Shown here in pieces: positions 21,011 to 27,567 of a DNA stretch of 64,000 bases. The notes below the pieces were generated by a model that was not told the DNA's origin, searched no databases, and was given only the letters and a program-made list of their open reading frames with translations. Source of the DNA: Methanospirillum hungatei (GTDB lineage: Archaea; Halobacteriota; Methanomicrobia; Methanomicrobiales; Methanospirillaceae); assembly GCF_019263745.1 (NCBI RefSeq), contig NZ_CP077107.1, forward strand, positions 2,542,001 to 2,606,000. The letters run 5' to 3'. The position numbers and the translations under genes are program-made. Position 1 is the stretch's first letter; each line of letters starts with the position of its first letter.

Positions 21011-23071
21011 TTAGTTACCTCCAAACTTTTCGATAGATATGGCACAGTGCTTGAGCTCCGGCATCTTGGACATCGGGTCAAGTGCAGTGTTGGTCAGGTT
21101 GTTGACACCCTCAGGGAAGTGCATGGTCATGTAGACAACACCTGGTGCAACTTCATCGGTGACACGTGCAAGTGTTTTAGTCTCTCCACGGCGGCTTTTC
21201 AGCTTGATGTATTCGCCATTCTTGATACCAAGGCGCTTTGCATCTTCAACGTTGATCTGTGCATAGGACTCTGGCACTTCACGGTGCATGTCTGCTGCAC
21301 GACCGGTCTGGCTCCGGGAGTGGTAATGGAAGATAAGACGTCCGGTCATCAGGGTGAATGGATACTCAGCGTCAGCAACTTCTGCCGGTGGGCGGTATTC
21401 AATACCAAAGAGGTTACCCTTTCCGTCAGCGGTTCCGAACTTTTCACGGTGCAGGATCGGAGTTCCGGGGTGTTCCTCGGTTGGACATGGCCAGCAGATG
21501 GATTCTGGTTTCTCCAGTTTCTCGTATGTTGCTCCGAACATGGACGGGGTTACAGCCCGCATATCGTCCCAGACATCCTTTGCAGTCGGGAGTTCAAAGC
21601 CCTTGAGGCCCATCTTGGCTGCAAGTTCTGATATGATGTGAATATCCTCTTTTGCCTGACCTGGTGGATTTACTGCCTTGCGTACCCGGTTAATACGGCG
21701 TTCTCCACTGGTGAACGTTCCATCCTTCTCTGCGAAACAGGCACCTGGCAGGATAACATCTGCATACTGACAGCTTTCGGTAAAGAAGATATCCTGGATA
21801 ACAAGGAAATCAAGTTTCTGGAATTGTGCCTTGACCAGATTTGAATCTGGATAGGTGACTGCAGGGTTCAGACCGAGGATATACATTCCCTTGATCTCTT
21901 CACCACACTGCTTGATCTGCTCAACCAGGGTAGCACCATACCAGTCTGGAAGATCAGTAACTCCCCATGCCTTCTCCATCTTGGCACGGTTGTCTGCAAC
22001 TTCACACTTCTGGTACCCGGAGTATACGTTCGGGTATGCACCCATATCACAGGCACCCTGTACATTGTTCTGACCACGGAGCGGATTGACACCGACACCT
22101 TCACGGCCTACGTTTCCGGTCAGGAGAGCAAGGTTACCCATGGATCTGACGTTGTCAGTACCGGTGGTCAGTTCGGTGATACCAAGACAGTAAATGATGA
22201 CTGCATTTTTTGCCTTTGCATATCTGAATGCCATGTCCTTGACAACATCAAGGGGAACACCGTGGATTGCTTCTGCATCTGCGTAGTTCTCAACCGTCTT
22301 CTTGAGATCCTCTAAGCCGTTTACCCGGTCCTGAATGAATTTTTTGTCTTCCAGGCCTTCCTTGATGATCCAGTACATCATGGAGTTTGCTAAGGCAATG
22401 TGAGTAGATGGATTAAATCGGACGTAGGTATCAGCCAGACGGGCGGTCATGGTATACCGTGGGTCAACGGCAATAATCGGGATACCTTTCTTCTTTGCCT
22501 GTGCAATACGGCGACCTGCAAGGGGGTGAGCTTCTACAGCGTTTGATCCCCAGATAAGAATTAAATCAGAGTTCAGTGCATCTTCAAAGCCGTTTGTGGC
22601 AGCACCTGAACCAAACGAGAGTGACAGACCTGCAACAGAAGGTCCGTGACAGATACGGGCACAGTTATCAACGTTATTGGTTTTGAATCCGATCCGGGCG
22701 AACTTCTGGAATATATAACAGTCTTCATTGACTGTTCTGCATGACGTCTGGAATCCAAGTCCTTTTGGGCCATGTTTGTCGTAGATTGCCTTAAGATTCT
22801 TTGCAACGAGGTCAAGGGCCTCATCCCAGGATGCTTCTACGAATTTTCCGTCCTTTTTGACCAGGGGAGTTGTCAGACGGTCAGGGCTGTGAATGTGCTC
22901 CCAGCAGGTTACTCCTTTTGGACAGAGTTTTCCTTCATTGATAGGAGATCTCTGGTTCGGCTCAACACCGACAACCTTGCCATTGTTCACTACCAGGTTT
23001 AATGTACAACCAACACCACAGTAGGGGCAGGTGGTTGCCACATATTTCATTAGTTCTGTATTTTCACTCAT
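21011..23071 (-). CDS. fdhA: Formate dehydrogenase alpha subunit (molybdopterin), copy 1
   Basis: This 686-aa catalytic subunit oxidises formate to CO2 at a Mo or W bis-pterin centre. The N-terminal [4Fe-4S] ligands are C15, C18, C22 and C50. The active-site residue is Cys141 in ARICHGPSVAGL, where E. coli FdhF has selenocysteine, so this is a Cys enzyme. The cofactor-binding WGSNAVEAHPLAGRRI, NPLRGQNNVQGACDMGA and C-terminal LMTGRLIFHYHSRSQTG segments are intact. GGGTGA precedes the ATG. It is nearly identical over most of its length to copy 2, and heads the fdhA1-fdhB1 pair. Confidence 0.94.
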   Translation of the reverse strand: MSENTELMKYVATTCPYCGVGCTLNLVVNNGKVVGVEPNQRSPINEGKLCPKGVTCWEHIHSPDRLTTPLVKKDGKFVEASWDEALDLVAKNLKAIYDKHGPKGLGFQTSCRTVNEDCYIFQKFARIGFKTNNVDNCARICHGPSVAGLSLSFGSGAATNGFEDALNSDLILIWGSNAVEAHPLAGRRIAQAKKKGIPIIAVDPRYTMTARLADTYVRFNPSTHIALANSMMYWIIKEGLEDKKFIQDRVNGLEDLKKTVENYADAEAIHGVPLDVVKDMAFRYAKAKNAVIIYCLGITELTTGTDNVRSMGNLALLTGNVGREGVGVNPLRGQNNVQGACDMGAYPNVYSGYQKCEVADNRAKMEKAWGVTDLPDWYGATLVEQIKQCGEEIKGMYILGLNPAVTYPDSNLVKAQFQKLDFLVIQDIFFTESCQYADVILPGACFAEKDGTFTSGERRINRVRKAVNPPGQAKEDIHIISELAAKMGLKGFELPTAKDVWDDMRAVTPSMFGATYEKLEKPESICWPCPTEEHPGTPILHREKFGTADGKGNLFGIEYRPPAEVADAEYPFTLMTGRLIFHYHSRSQTGRAADMHREVPESYAQINVEDAKRLGIKNGEYIKLKSRRGETKTLARVTDEVAPGVVYMTMHFPEGVNNLTNTALDPMSKMPELKHCAISIEKFGGN

Positions 23072-23362
23072 ATTTCACCCGAGTTTAGCTGGTGAAAGAT
23101 ACCATTCATTATCGGTAGAGCATACGCTCATCAGCTAATCCATGCTTTTTTGCAACCAGGCCTTAGGAATGGACAACCCGAATATGCCCATGGGTGTAAT
23201 CGGACACCCCCTGATCACATTGCAGAGAAATATTGTAATGAGTACTAATATAAAGCTGGCGAATTAATCCGGAAATATGGTGTTTAGTGGTGGAGGTCTT
23301 GAATGATCACTTTGAATACACGATTACCGGATGAAAAGAAGAGTATGGAAAAAAGAGGATGG
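23072..23362 (-). promoter_or_regulatory. Promoter and leader of fdhA1B1
   Basis: On the minus strand AATTCGCCA (23257-23265 region) is followed by a TATA box CTTTATATTAG (about 23246-23256), giving an untranslated leader near 150 bases. The leader contains a GGGTGT/ACACCC hairpin (23192-23209). TGGCGAATT with the same placement recurs ahead of fdhA2 (26730-26738), which marks it as a shared element. fdhA1 therefore has its own promoter and is not only read through from fdhB2. Confidence 0.5.
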
Positions 23363-24515: not shown

Positions 24516-26573
24516 TTAGTTCCCTCCCATCTTTTCAACTTTCACAGCACAGTGTTTGAGTTCCGGCATCTTGGACATCGGATCGAGTGCAGTGTTGGTG
24601 AGGTTATTGACACCTTCGTTAAAGTGCATGGTCATGTACAGGACACCTGGTCCGATCTCATCGGTTACATGAGCAACGGTTTCTGTTTTTCCACGGCGGC
24701 TGGAGATAAGGATCTTCTCATGCTGTCCGATACCGAGGCGTTTTGCATCCTCGTGGTTGATCTGGACATAAGAGGCAGGCACTTCGTAGTGAAGGGCTGC
24801 ACTTCTGTCAGTCTGTGAACGTGAGTGGTAATGGAAGATGAGACGACCAGTCATCATGGTGAACGGATATTCTGCATCTGCAACTTCTGCCGGTGGGCGG
24901 TATTCAATACCAAAGAGATTACCCTTGCCGTCAGCAGTTGAAAACTTGCCTATGTGCAGAATTGGAGTTCCGGGATGGTCTTCAGTCGGGCATGGCCAGA
25001 CAATGGACTCGGGCTTTTCGAGTTTCTCATACGTTGCACCAAACATGTTCGGGGTGCAGTTCCGCATGTCATCCCAGACCGATTTTGCAGTCGGAAGTTC
25101 AAAGCCCTTAAGGCCCATCTTCTTTGCAAGTTCGGCAATGATCCAGATGTCTTCCTTTGCTTTTCCCGGCGGGTTGACTGCTTTTCTGACCCGGTTGATA
25201 CGGCGTTCACCGCTCGTAAAGGTTCCATCCTTCTCTGCAAAACAGGCTCCCGGAAGAATAACATCCGCATACTGACAGCTTTCGGTAAAGAATATATCCT
25301 GAATAACAAGGAAGTCAAGTTTCTGGAATTGTGCTTTGACCAGGTTTGAGTCCGGATACGTAACGACCGGGTTCAGACCAAGAACGTACATGGCTTTGAT
25401 TTCATTTCCGCATTGCTTGATCTGTTCAACCAGAGTAGCACCATACCAGTCTGGAAGTCCGGATGTTCCCCAGGCCTTCTCCATCTTTGCACGGTTGTCT
25501 GCAACTTCACACTTCTGGTAACCTGAATAGACGTTTGGATATGCACCCATGTCACAGGCACCCTGCACATTGTTCTGACCACGGAGTGGATTGACACCAA
25601 CACCTGGACGTCCGACATTCCCGGTGAGCAGGGCAAGGTTACCCATGGACCGTACATTGTCAGTACCGGTGGTCAGCTCGGTGATTCCAAGACAGTAGAT
25701 GATGACTGCATTCTTGGCTGATGCATACTTGTATGCCAGATCTTTTACTGTTTCAAGTGGCACACCATGGATGTCTTCAGCATCTGCATATTTTTCAACC
25801 ATTGCCTTGAGTTCTTCAAAGCCGTTGACACGCTCTTCGATGAACTTCTTGTCATGTTTTCCTGCCTTGATGATCCAGTACATCATAGAGTTTGCAAGAG
25901 CAATGTGAGTTGACGGATTAAACTGGATCCACTTGTCAGCAATCTTGGCAGTAGTCGAGAGACGTGGATCTACTGCATAAATCGGAATGCCTTTCAGTTT
26001 TGCCTGGACCATCCGGCGACCTGCAAGGGGGTGAGCTTCAAGGGCATTTGAACCCCATACCAGAATAAAATCAGAGTTTAATGCATCTTCAAAACCGTTG
26101 GTTGCCGCACCGGAACCAAATGACAGAGAGAGACCAGCAACAGAGGGACCGTGACAGATACGGGCACAGTTATCCACGTTGTTTGTTTTGAATCCAACCC
26201 GGGCGAATTTCTGGAAAATATAACAGTCTTCGTTTACCGTTCTACAGGATGTCTGGAACCCAAGTCCCTTTGGCCCGTATTTATCGCTTGTTTCTTTCAG
26301 CTTCTTGGCAACAAGATCAAGTGCCTCATCCCATGATGCCTCGACAAACTTCCCATCTTTTTTAATGAGTGGTGTAGTAAGCCGGTCAGGACTGTGAACA
26401 TGTTCCCAGCAGGTAAGACCCTTGGGACAGAGTTTCCCATCGTTAATAGGGCTTCTCTTATACGGTTCTACGCCAACGACCTTTTCGTTTTTTACAACAA
26501 GGTTCAGTGTACACCCGACACCACAATAGGGGCAGGTGGTTTGTACATACTTAATTAAATTGCTATCGCTCAT
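24516..26573 (-). CDS. fdhA: Formate dehydrogenase alpha subunit (molybdopterin), copy 2
   Basis: This 685-aa catalytic subunit has the same N-terminal [4Fe-4S] ligands (TTCPYCGVGCTL and KLCPKG) and a Cys active site in ARICHGPSVAGL. Long blocks are identical to copy 1 at the protein level, for instance the stretch around TELTTGTDNVRSMGNLALL. The frame is open to 26660, but ATG 26573 has GGGTGAAAG before it, as in copy 1, and the extra upstream residues have no match in copy 1. It heads the first of the two pairs and has its own leader. Confidence 0.94.
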   Translation of the reverse strand: MSDSNLIKYVQTTCPYCGVGCTLNLVVKNEKVVGVEPYKRSPINDGKLCPKGLTCWEHVHSPDRLTTPLIKKDGKFVEASWDEALDLVAKKLKETSDKYGPKGLGFQTSCRTVNEDCYIFQKFARVGFKTNNVDNCARICHGPSVAGLSLSFGSGAATNGFEDALNSDFILVWGSNALEAHPLAGRRMVQAKLKGIPIYAVDPRLSTTAKIADKWIQFNPSTHIALANSMMYWIIKAGKHDKKFIEERVNGFEELKAMVEKYADAEDIHGVPLETVKDLAYKYASAKNAVIIYCLGITELTTGTDNVRSMGNLALLTGNVGRPGVGVNPLRGQNNVQGACDMGAYPNVYSGYQKCEVADNRAKMEKAWGTSGLPDWYGATLVEQIKQCGNEIKAMYVLGLNPVVTYPDSNLVKAQFQKLDFLVIQDIFFTESCQYADVILPGACFAEKDGTFTSGERRINRVRKAVNPPGKAKEDIWIIAELAKKMGLKGFELPTAKSVWDDMRNCTPNMFGATYEKLEKPESIVWPCPTEDHPGTPILHIGKFSTADGKGNLFGIEYRPPAEVADAEYPFTMMTGRLIFHYHSRSQTDRSAALHYEVPASYVQINHEDAKRLGIGQHEKILISSRRGKTETVAHVTDEIGPGVLYMTMHFNEGVNNLTNTALDPMSKMPELKHCAVKVEKMGGN

Positions 26574-27248
26574 TCTTTCACCCGAGTTCTCAGGGTGGAA
26601 TAACCCAAAGAGGTCCATTAGAACTGGACCTGTACAGAGGGGTGAGCACAAGGAAACCACACAAACCCAGTGCTGAAAATTCCTTCCTCTCTACCTGAAT
26701 AACAGACTTTGTCTATTCCAACCGGTTTATGGCGAATTTAGTGTGCTCTTATCCGATGATAAGATGGCACTGGCAATTCTCATGCGAAGATAATCAGGAA
26801 ATAATTCTTAAAATCCCGGATTATCCTTATTCAGATACGGTTCGAATCATGATAACGTGATTCATATACTGTGAGGCATTTTGAATCTGCCTAAATACCT
26901 GTCCCTTCAGGTATGTGCATCCTGATTCATGCGTGTACACAGTATATTTCAACTGTTCCTAATCTCATGGCATAAATTTTACGAATTGCAGTTGTTTATA
27001 ATGTGAAATCAATTAAGAGAAAAATAGGGTGTTTTTAAGTGAAATATTGTCATATTTGTCTTTTTAGAAATCTATCCCATATATTATTTTTCGGAGGTAT
27101 GGACGTATGATTAATATTTTTCGTTCAACAATATCTGATATTAATAATAATCGTTAATTCTTTTTACCGATATGTCGGGCGCGATAGAAAAAGATATTCG
27201 CTCAGTTCGAATCCCGTATCTGGACTGATTCTGTTGTATGGTGTTATA
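26574..27248 (-). promoter_or_regulatory. Leader and promoter region of fdhA2
   Basis: No gene is visible in this part. Close to fdhA2 lies a hairpin AGGTCCA (26611-26617) / TGGACCT (26625-26631). TGGCGAATTTA at 26730-26740 matches the element ahead of fdhA1, with CCATAAACC next to it as a weak TATA box. Further out, TACCTG/CAGGTA forms a small hairpin near 26900. At 27196-27212 ATTCG/CGAAT encloses a 7-base loop inside an AGAT/ATCT stem, possibly part of the structured RNA that follows. Confidence 0.4.
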
Positions 27249-27355
27249 TGATGACCCTCAAAGAGGAAAGGTTTGTGATCGAAACCGATCTATTGTGTGT
27301 GGTTGTAGCCTTTCCCGGTTAACCCTGAGAGATCCCGAACCTTTGAGGGTCATTA
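27249..27355 (+). ncRNA. Candidate structured RNA, three-stem fold
   Basis: 27249-27263 pairs with 27341-27355 in a 15-bp closing stem with one G-U pair. Inside it 27265-27273 pairs with 27307-27315 (9 bp, one U-G pair), enclosing a hairpin GATCG/CGATC (27277-27281 with 27286-27290). The remaining arm, 27316-27340, can close weakly through GGTT/AACC, giving a three-way junction of about 107 nt. Both wobble pairs are G-U on the plus strand and would be A-C on the minus strand, so the plus strand is favoured. No open frame spans it. I cannot assign a family: tRNA, SRP, RNase P and standard C/D guide layouts do not fit. Confidence 0.45.
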
Positions 27356-27567
27356 CTCATCCTACCTCACCAGTTGTTTGGTATACATGAGTACAACTTC
27401 GTTGCTCTTGTTTGAATTTAATTGTTCAACTTCAGGTGTCCCATTACAATATCTATATATATTAATTGCAATCTCTCTCAAAAATACAGTTTTAATTGCA
27501 AAATGTCAAATATTAGCCATATTATTTAAAAAAAGCTGAAACCCTGGTTCTGTCGTATTCTCGAAAA
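27356..27567. other. AT-rich intergenic segment
   Basis: No supported gene. A 50-codon frame from ATG 27387 has no ribosome binding site and no recognisable content. TATATATTAATTG near 27450 is a strong TATA-like block that has no gene placed to use it on the plus strand. Confidence 0.3.

Follow-up and report, generated by a model that had tools for sequence, protein, structure and literature searches.

Introduction

That an RNA can open an inhibitory structure in a leader is established for bacteria, as set out in the excerpted text of PMC9988348. In archaea, base-pairing RNAs have been reported to mask the ribosome-binding site (RBS) or to stabilise mRNAs, and the excerpts of PMC5867862, PMC11456600 and PMC3510493 hold one statement of translation activation; loop 2 of the M. 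mazei sRNA154 is said to activate translation of the nrpA mRNA (excerpt of PMC11456600).

Here we consider a locus ahead of the formate dehydrogenase gene fdhA2 of Methanospirillum, contained in a 64-kb stretch of genomic DNA that we refer to as the window. To our knowledge, it is an open question how the cell selects among its formate dehydrogenases. Methanospirillum has two main electron donors, of which formate is one, and strain GP1 has six putative formate dehydrogenases (PMC8359780).

A conserved structured RNA ahead of fdhA2

The original prediction placed a structured RNA with long closing arms at 27249-27355, in a gene-free stretch ahead of fdhA2, and could name no RNA family for it. 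No ORF of at least 60 aa is listed between 26660 and 27568, and the stems lie where they had been drawn: the arms at 27251-27263 and 27341-27353, 13 nt each, are 100% complementary and form a perfect inverted repeat. The segment folds with an energy of -38.4 kcal/mol on the plus strand and -36.8 kcal/mol on the minus strand, compared with dinucleotide shuffle means of -23.3 and -22.4 (z of -4.7 and -4.6, respectively), and none of 200 shuffles per strand was equally stable. The stems were thus correctly located within 27249-27355, but the element itself is longer, since a conserved hairpin at 27354-27393 also belongs to it; a further hairpin at 27190-27223, suggested to lie in the same transcript, finds no support, and the sequence there is not conserved. 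We refer to the full element as D1; its parts, and the predicted promoter ahead of it, are as follows.

27430-27463, minus strand: predicted D1 promoter, with a TATA box at 27454-27461 and a predicted start at ~27430-27440, near GGGAC (27438-27442)
27247-27398, minus strand: D1, the structured RNA element (model R1), matched in 8 of 12 genomes of the genus and showing covariation
27354-27393, minus strand: hairpin H1, TACTCAT/ATGAGTA with an inner ACC/GGT; its outer part is present in all eight carrier genomes, G010 included
27251-27353, minus strand: closing stem H2 (arms 27251-27263 and 27341-27353), with compensatory changes
27265-27315, minus strand: stem H3 (arms 27265-27271 and 27309-27315); G-C becomes A-U in G009, and G-U occurs in G011
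27277-27290, minus strand: hairpin H4, GATCG/CGATC, with other but still paired sequences in relatives
27322-27330, minus strand: site i, UCUCAGGGU, which complements the 5' arm of the SD hairpin
27297-27304, minus strand: site ii, AACCACAC, an unpaired loop complementary to the fdhA2 mRNA leader

All four helices (H1 to H4) are retained in seven genomes, and an extra hairpin near the predicted D1 start, H0, was read in six. In an eight-sequence alignment that was fitted to the structure, and is therefore biased in its favour, 83.1% of cells in D1 pairs are paired (shuffle mean 78.0%), and both sides have changed at 10 of 32 pairs where 3.9 are expected from shuffles; none of 500 shuffles reached either figure. 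When partners are slid by 1-3 columns, pairing falls to 38-54%. The model-fitted alignment misaligns H4 in several rows (42.9% paired there); by hand reading, H4 is paired throughout in all seven genomes, with differing sequences. The covariation in relatives that had been proposed as a check is present, and D1 is a genuine conserved structured RNA fold, larger than first noted.

The absence of a nameable family also held: at the Rfam gathering score there are no matches in the window, and the single chance-level U6 match (E 1.9) falls outside D1. ARAGORN finds no tRNA or tmRNA genes in the window, and the genome's RNase P RNA match lies elsewhere (C1:140338-140636). A C/D-box sRNA, considered on the basis of its box motifs, was set aside, since the box-like sequence at the edge of D1 lacks conservation. 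A search of titles and abstract openings of open-licence PMC papers returned no description of the element.

The fdhA2 leader

An eight-genome alignment reveals a long conserved leader that runs from a promoter-like CGTAARATTTATGC to the start codon and comprises D2, D3, GTGTGGTT and, over the start, CACCCTGAGAACTCGGGTGAAAGAATG, which folds as a predicted hairpin holding the SD. Its features, together with the gene and a motif farther upstream, are as follows.

27178-27185, minus strand: conserved ATCGCGCC-like motif
26970-26983, minus strand: conserved BRE/TATA-like CGTAAAATTTATGC, the predicted promoter of the fdhA2 mRNA (start ~26949; spacing judged by eye)
26839-26950, minus strand: D2, a second structured leader domain (model R2) with a four-way junction and a hairpin, in the same eight genomes as D1
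26731-26781, minus strand: D3, a conserved leader segment, GAGAATTGCC...AATTCGCC
26655-26662, minus strand: site ii', GTGTGGTT, partner of site ii, in 8 of 8 genomes
26611-26631, minus strand: hairpin between ii' and i', AGGTCCA/TGGACCT; its arms differ in several relatives (by eye)
26588-26596, minus strand: site i', ACCCTGAGA, partner of site i, in 7 of 8 genomes
26578-26597, minus strand: predicted SD-sequestering hairpin CACCC..GGGTG, with the SD GGUGA at 26578-26582
24516-26573, minus strand: fdhA2, from the conserved ATG at 26573

The mechanically called ORF of fdhA2 (24516-26660, minus strand) begins at a GTG at 26660, inside the leader; conservation backs the ATG at 26573. D2 is conserved more strongly than D1, has no Rfam match and could be a sensor domain. 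Upstream, 200-202 nt separate the TCGCGC of the ATCGCGCC-like motif from the fdhA2 promoter-like element in seven genomes out of eight (225 in G006), most of the sequence between them is not conserved, and the spaced pair occurs once in the genome; such strict spacing suggests a constraint at the DNA level. The neighbouring paralogue fdhA1 (ATG at 23071) has a hairpin-like sequence of its own that would hide the SD, TTTCACC...GGGTGAAA at 23071-23110 (minus strand), found in most of the other fdhA1-like copies that were read, and its leader is without CCTGAGA, the target site of D1.

Distribution and linkage to fdhA2

We searched 232 genomes of the order with R1, a minus-strand model built from seven genomes. 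It matched 8 of the 12 Methanospirillum genomes and nothing at E<=0.1 in the rest of that set; two weak matches, one in G057 (E 0.26) and one at another position in G008 (E 0.43), were discarded as chance. BLAST of 61 genomes gave six strong matches beyond the window, all in the same genus, the window's copy being the one strong match in its own genome; the others were at chance level except for a weak match in G010 that is real by position. A pattern scan of genome contigs yielded seven records, from four Methanospirillum, one Methanomicrobiales MAG and two bacteria (Hahella and Akkermansiaceae), the last two of which we take as chance because R1 finds no match at either locus. D2 has the same distribution as D1: R2 matches the same eight genomes and nothing credible outside the genus (a second match in G011, E 0.65, was dropped as chance), and the four Methanospirillum genomes that lack D1 (G001, G003, G004 and G007, two of them incomplete at 88% and 67%) lack D2 as well. 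ACCCTGAGA is likewise absent from up to 1.5 kb upstream of the fdhA copies retrieved from those four genomes.

In all eight carrier genomes, 699-741 nt separate the D1 anchor AACCACAC from the start codon of the fdhA2 orthologue, which lies downstream on the same strand. The gene on the other side of D1 varies. In the window it is a 440-aa ORF; G002 and G008 have a kinase-like ORF there, G005 and G011 a 229-aa ORF on the opposite strand, and G009, G006 and G010 have other genes (upstream genes were named by eye). The carriers are not independent samples, G002 and G008 being near-twins. Best matches to FdhA2 have 90-98% identity in G009, G002, G010, G008 and G011 (partial in G011); the figure is 94% for G005, whose copy is partial, and 81% for G006. 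The G008 copy (L054, C135) contains three internal stops (two TGA, one TAA), reflecting draft error or decay.

The perfect 13-nt inverted repeat could also have marked a DNA feature, either a mobile inverted-repeat element or paired operator sites. We consider this very improbable: the element is single-copy in its genome, with other matches at chance level, it occupies one fixed site ahead of one gene in eight genomes, and its stems change in pairs. A mobile inverted-repeat element was accordingly rejected.

The linkage bears more closely on the main rival to a separate small RNA, namely a single read-through leader of ~870 nt extending from ~27440 to fdhA2, of which D1 would be the first domain and would pair with the SD hairpin in cis; control might perhaps come from a ligand, a protein or leader folding, as in a very long riboswitch or RNA thermometer. 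The shared strand and the order and distance fixed in 8 of 8 genomes, though upstream neighbours differ, speak for such a leader, as does the lack (by eye) of a conserved U-tract or terminator after D1. Set against it are the conserved BRE/TATA-like element just ahead of D2 and the poor conservation of the 200 nt before that element (~30-55% identity in most pairs). We regard the long leader as a substantial minority possibility, and lean, weakly, toward D1 as a separate small RNA because that second conserved BRE/TATA-like element stands directly ahead of D2.

Strand of D1

The original prediction favoured a plus-strand transcript, on the grounds that the wobble pairs are G-U only on that strand. 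This is true of the window's own two wobbles but not of the seven genomes with an intact element, whose hand-assigned helices hold seven G-U pairs on the minus strand and four on the plus strand (six versus four when the near-twin G008 is left out), in a count that includes the end pairs with the window's two wobbles. Consensus folding energies are lower on the minus strand for D1 (-26.6 versus -23.5) and for the fdhA2 leader (-74.1 versus -56.2); for D2 the strands are near-equal (-25.7 versus -25.1), and wobble-kept pairs are commoner on the minus strand. Single-sequence energies favour the minus strand in 6 of 7 genomes. Just ahead of D1 on the minus strand, a TATA-like sequence keeps a near-constant distance to a conserved GGAC in the eight aligned genomes (by eye), and only a minus-strand transcript would have the complementarity to the fdhA2 mRNA described below. 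Promoter position and mRNA complementarity carry more weight here than wobbles and energies; taken together, the four outweigh the plus-strand reading, and we lean toward the minus strand, the sense strand of fdhA2, short of proof.

Complementarity between D1 and the fdhA2 leader

We scanned every column pair between D1 (212 nt per genome) and the fdhA2 leader across eight genomes. The exhaustive scan returned only two 8-column complementarities present in at least 7 of 8 genomes: for site ii, AACCACAC, the complement is GUGUGGUU / GTGTGGTT, situated 88-100 nt upstream of the start codon (all eight genomes); for site i, UCUCAGGG(U), it is (A)CCCUGAGA, at -23 or, in G005, -22 (seven genomes). 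These sites are the two most conserved loops of D1, they occur in antiparallel-colinear order relative to their partners, and (A)CCCUGAGA sits in the 5' arm of the SD-hiding hairpin. Three control senses (parallel complement, antiparallel identity and direct repeat) gave none at a looser 7-column setting. Of 2000 runs under a null in which leader columns are redrawn with conservation kept, 17 produced one or more such complementarities and 4 produced two or more, figures that serve as guides and not as strict p-values because the matches were spotted by eye before the scan thresholds were set. Each pairing motif occurs exactly twice in the window, as the two partners, and looser RBS-like matches (three mismatches) number 11 in the genome versus 6 for a backward-read control. 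The two-site target occurs once in the whole genome, at this locus, which would also suit the long read-through leader. That D1 lies ahead of fdhA2 had been noted from the outset; the two conserved complementarities make the link between them stronger than first supposed.

G002, G008, G011 and G005 (L052, L054, L070 = G011 and L071 = G005) show an additional match, in which GGUAAAAC of D1 complements GUUUUACC, located at -28; overlapping site i', it is possibly an alternative register.

G010 keeps site ii, the partner of site ii and H1, and has lost site i (UCUCAGGG), ACCCTGAGA at the RBS and the lower D1 stems of the model. Its RBS hairpin is weaker (-6.2 versus -9.8 to -13.3 kcal/mol in the others), and its SD is still mostly paired (0.006-0.011 unpaired). 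Such a co-loss, a single event, has the look of a lock and key fallen out of use.

These observations also bear on whether D1 might be structured for another purpose, binding a protein or some other target, with its complementarity to the leader a coincidence. D1 and D2 do have further conserved loops outside the pairing sites, and the partner sites are nearly invariant, so that no compensatory change is available between i and i' or between ii and ii'. Coincidence would nevertheless have to accommodate the 4 in 2000 null runs with two conserved complementarities, the position of i' in the SD-hiding arm with a near-top rank for freeing the SD (see below), and the co-loss in G010; we judge it unlikely.

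Predicted energetics of pairing

Site ii counts among the most open segments of D1, ranking between 1 and 5 of 190 in six genomes and 22nd and 23rd in the near-twins (G008 and G002, respectively), and opening site ii' costs 0.3-2.0 kcal/mol; the predicted net gain from their pairing is -8.4 to -10.0 kcal/mol in the eight genomes. For the seven genomes with site i, opening costs are 2.4-4.4 kcal/mol for site i and 3.7-8.4 kcal/mol for site i', leaving a net -3.7 to -7.4 kcal/mol. Both sites together give -12.6 to -16.6 kcal/mol before loop penalties.

Blocking i' in the model raises the chance of an unpaired SD in 7 of 7 genomes. With i' occupied, the unpaired probability of GGUGA in these seven goes from 0.000-0.039 to 0.006-0.473 for a long target and from 0.000-0.002 to 0.063-0.803 for a short one; in G005, with the long target, the SD is freed only to 0.006. 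Among 134 windows, i' ranks 2nd for freeing the SD in five of the seven genomes and 4th and 9th in the others. This result speaks to a repressive role, in which D1 paired near the start codon would block the ribosome, much as M. mazei sRNA162 (excerpt of PMC3510493) and sRNA154 (excerpt of PMC5867862) are reported to mask ribosome sites. Here the predicted partner of D1 is the opposite arm of the hairpin and not the SD itself, and the model frees the SD rather than hiding it, so repression appears distinctly improbable.

In nested folding of the whole 879-921 nt, both long-range pairings have a probability of 0.00 wherever their sites occur, a result that counts against the proposed pairing, also in cis within a long leader, and that fits a coincidental complementarity. 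D1's own stems compete with the long-range pairing, or a pseudoknot would result. Co-folding D1 with the leader gains 2.7-9.3 kcal/mol over the separate RNAs, as a total over all pairs in the complex.

Proposed mechanism

From features read in the sequence, namely conservation, stems, fixed-site complementarity, linkage to fdhA2 and one co-loss, we infer transcription, pairing, its order and activation as follows. D1 would be transcribed on the sense strand of fdhA2 from its own predicted promoter at ~27440, and stems H2-H4 would display its two conserved loops. The first contact would be made by loop ii (AACCACAC) at the accessible GUGUGGUU, ~90 nt upstream of the fdhA2 start codon. Pairing of loop i (UCUCAGGGU) with ACCCUGAGA, the 5' arm of the hairpin over the SD GGUGA, would follow; the hairpin would then open, allowing the formate dehydrogenase to be translated. 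We assign a probability of roughly 0.55 to this reading, on which D1 is a genus-specific regulatory RNA from its own promoter that opens the SD hairpin and switches on translation of fdhA2.

We would give even odds to the broader proposition that D1 represents a new class of archaeal RNA confined to Methanospirillum: a riboregulator with two loops, encoded directly ahead of its only target, that docks on the mRNA by way of an open loop and then unzips the RBS hairpin to turn on a formate dehydrogenase. If true, the locus would offer a clear and testable archaeal case of RNA-driven translational activation, with an SD hairpin opened via two fixed sites, and a switch for formate dehydrogenase in methanogens living on formate supplied by syntrophic partners.

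Comparison with known systems

Considered as an anti-antisense activator, D1 has a conserved paired structure, its target has a structure predicted to hide the SD, and complementarity to the arm opposite the SD is conserved in 7 of 8 genomes; pairing of D1 with the leader is favourable in the site model and absent in nested whole-leader folding. The fdhA2 leader resembles riboswitches and RNA thermometers in being folded and in carrying an SD-hiding hairpin, whereas D1 has no match to an Rfam riboswitch.

Among methanogen RNAs, M. mazei sRNA162 likewise has two pairing domains, but according to the excerpt of PMC3510493 these reach two different mRNAs and mask the RBS, whereas the two loops of D1 reach one leader. 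M. mazei sRNA154, compared here by description, is similar to D1 as a methanogen RNA whose loops pair with leaders and differs in having several targets; it is reported to act mainly by mRNA stabilisation or RBS masking (excerpt of PMC5867862).

RNAIII on hla and DsrA on rpoS are bacterial anti-antisense activators whose hosts and genes are unrelated to those of D1; D1 is archaeal and adjoins its only two-site target, and its activation is a proposal. The model for D1 is nevertheless like theirs: in each, an RNA pairs with a 5' UTR and disrupts a structure that hides the RBS (as excerpted from PMC9988348).
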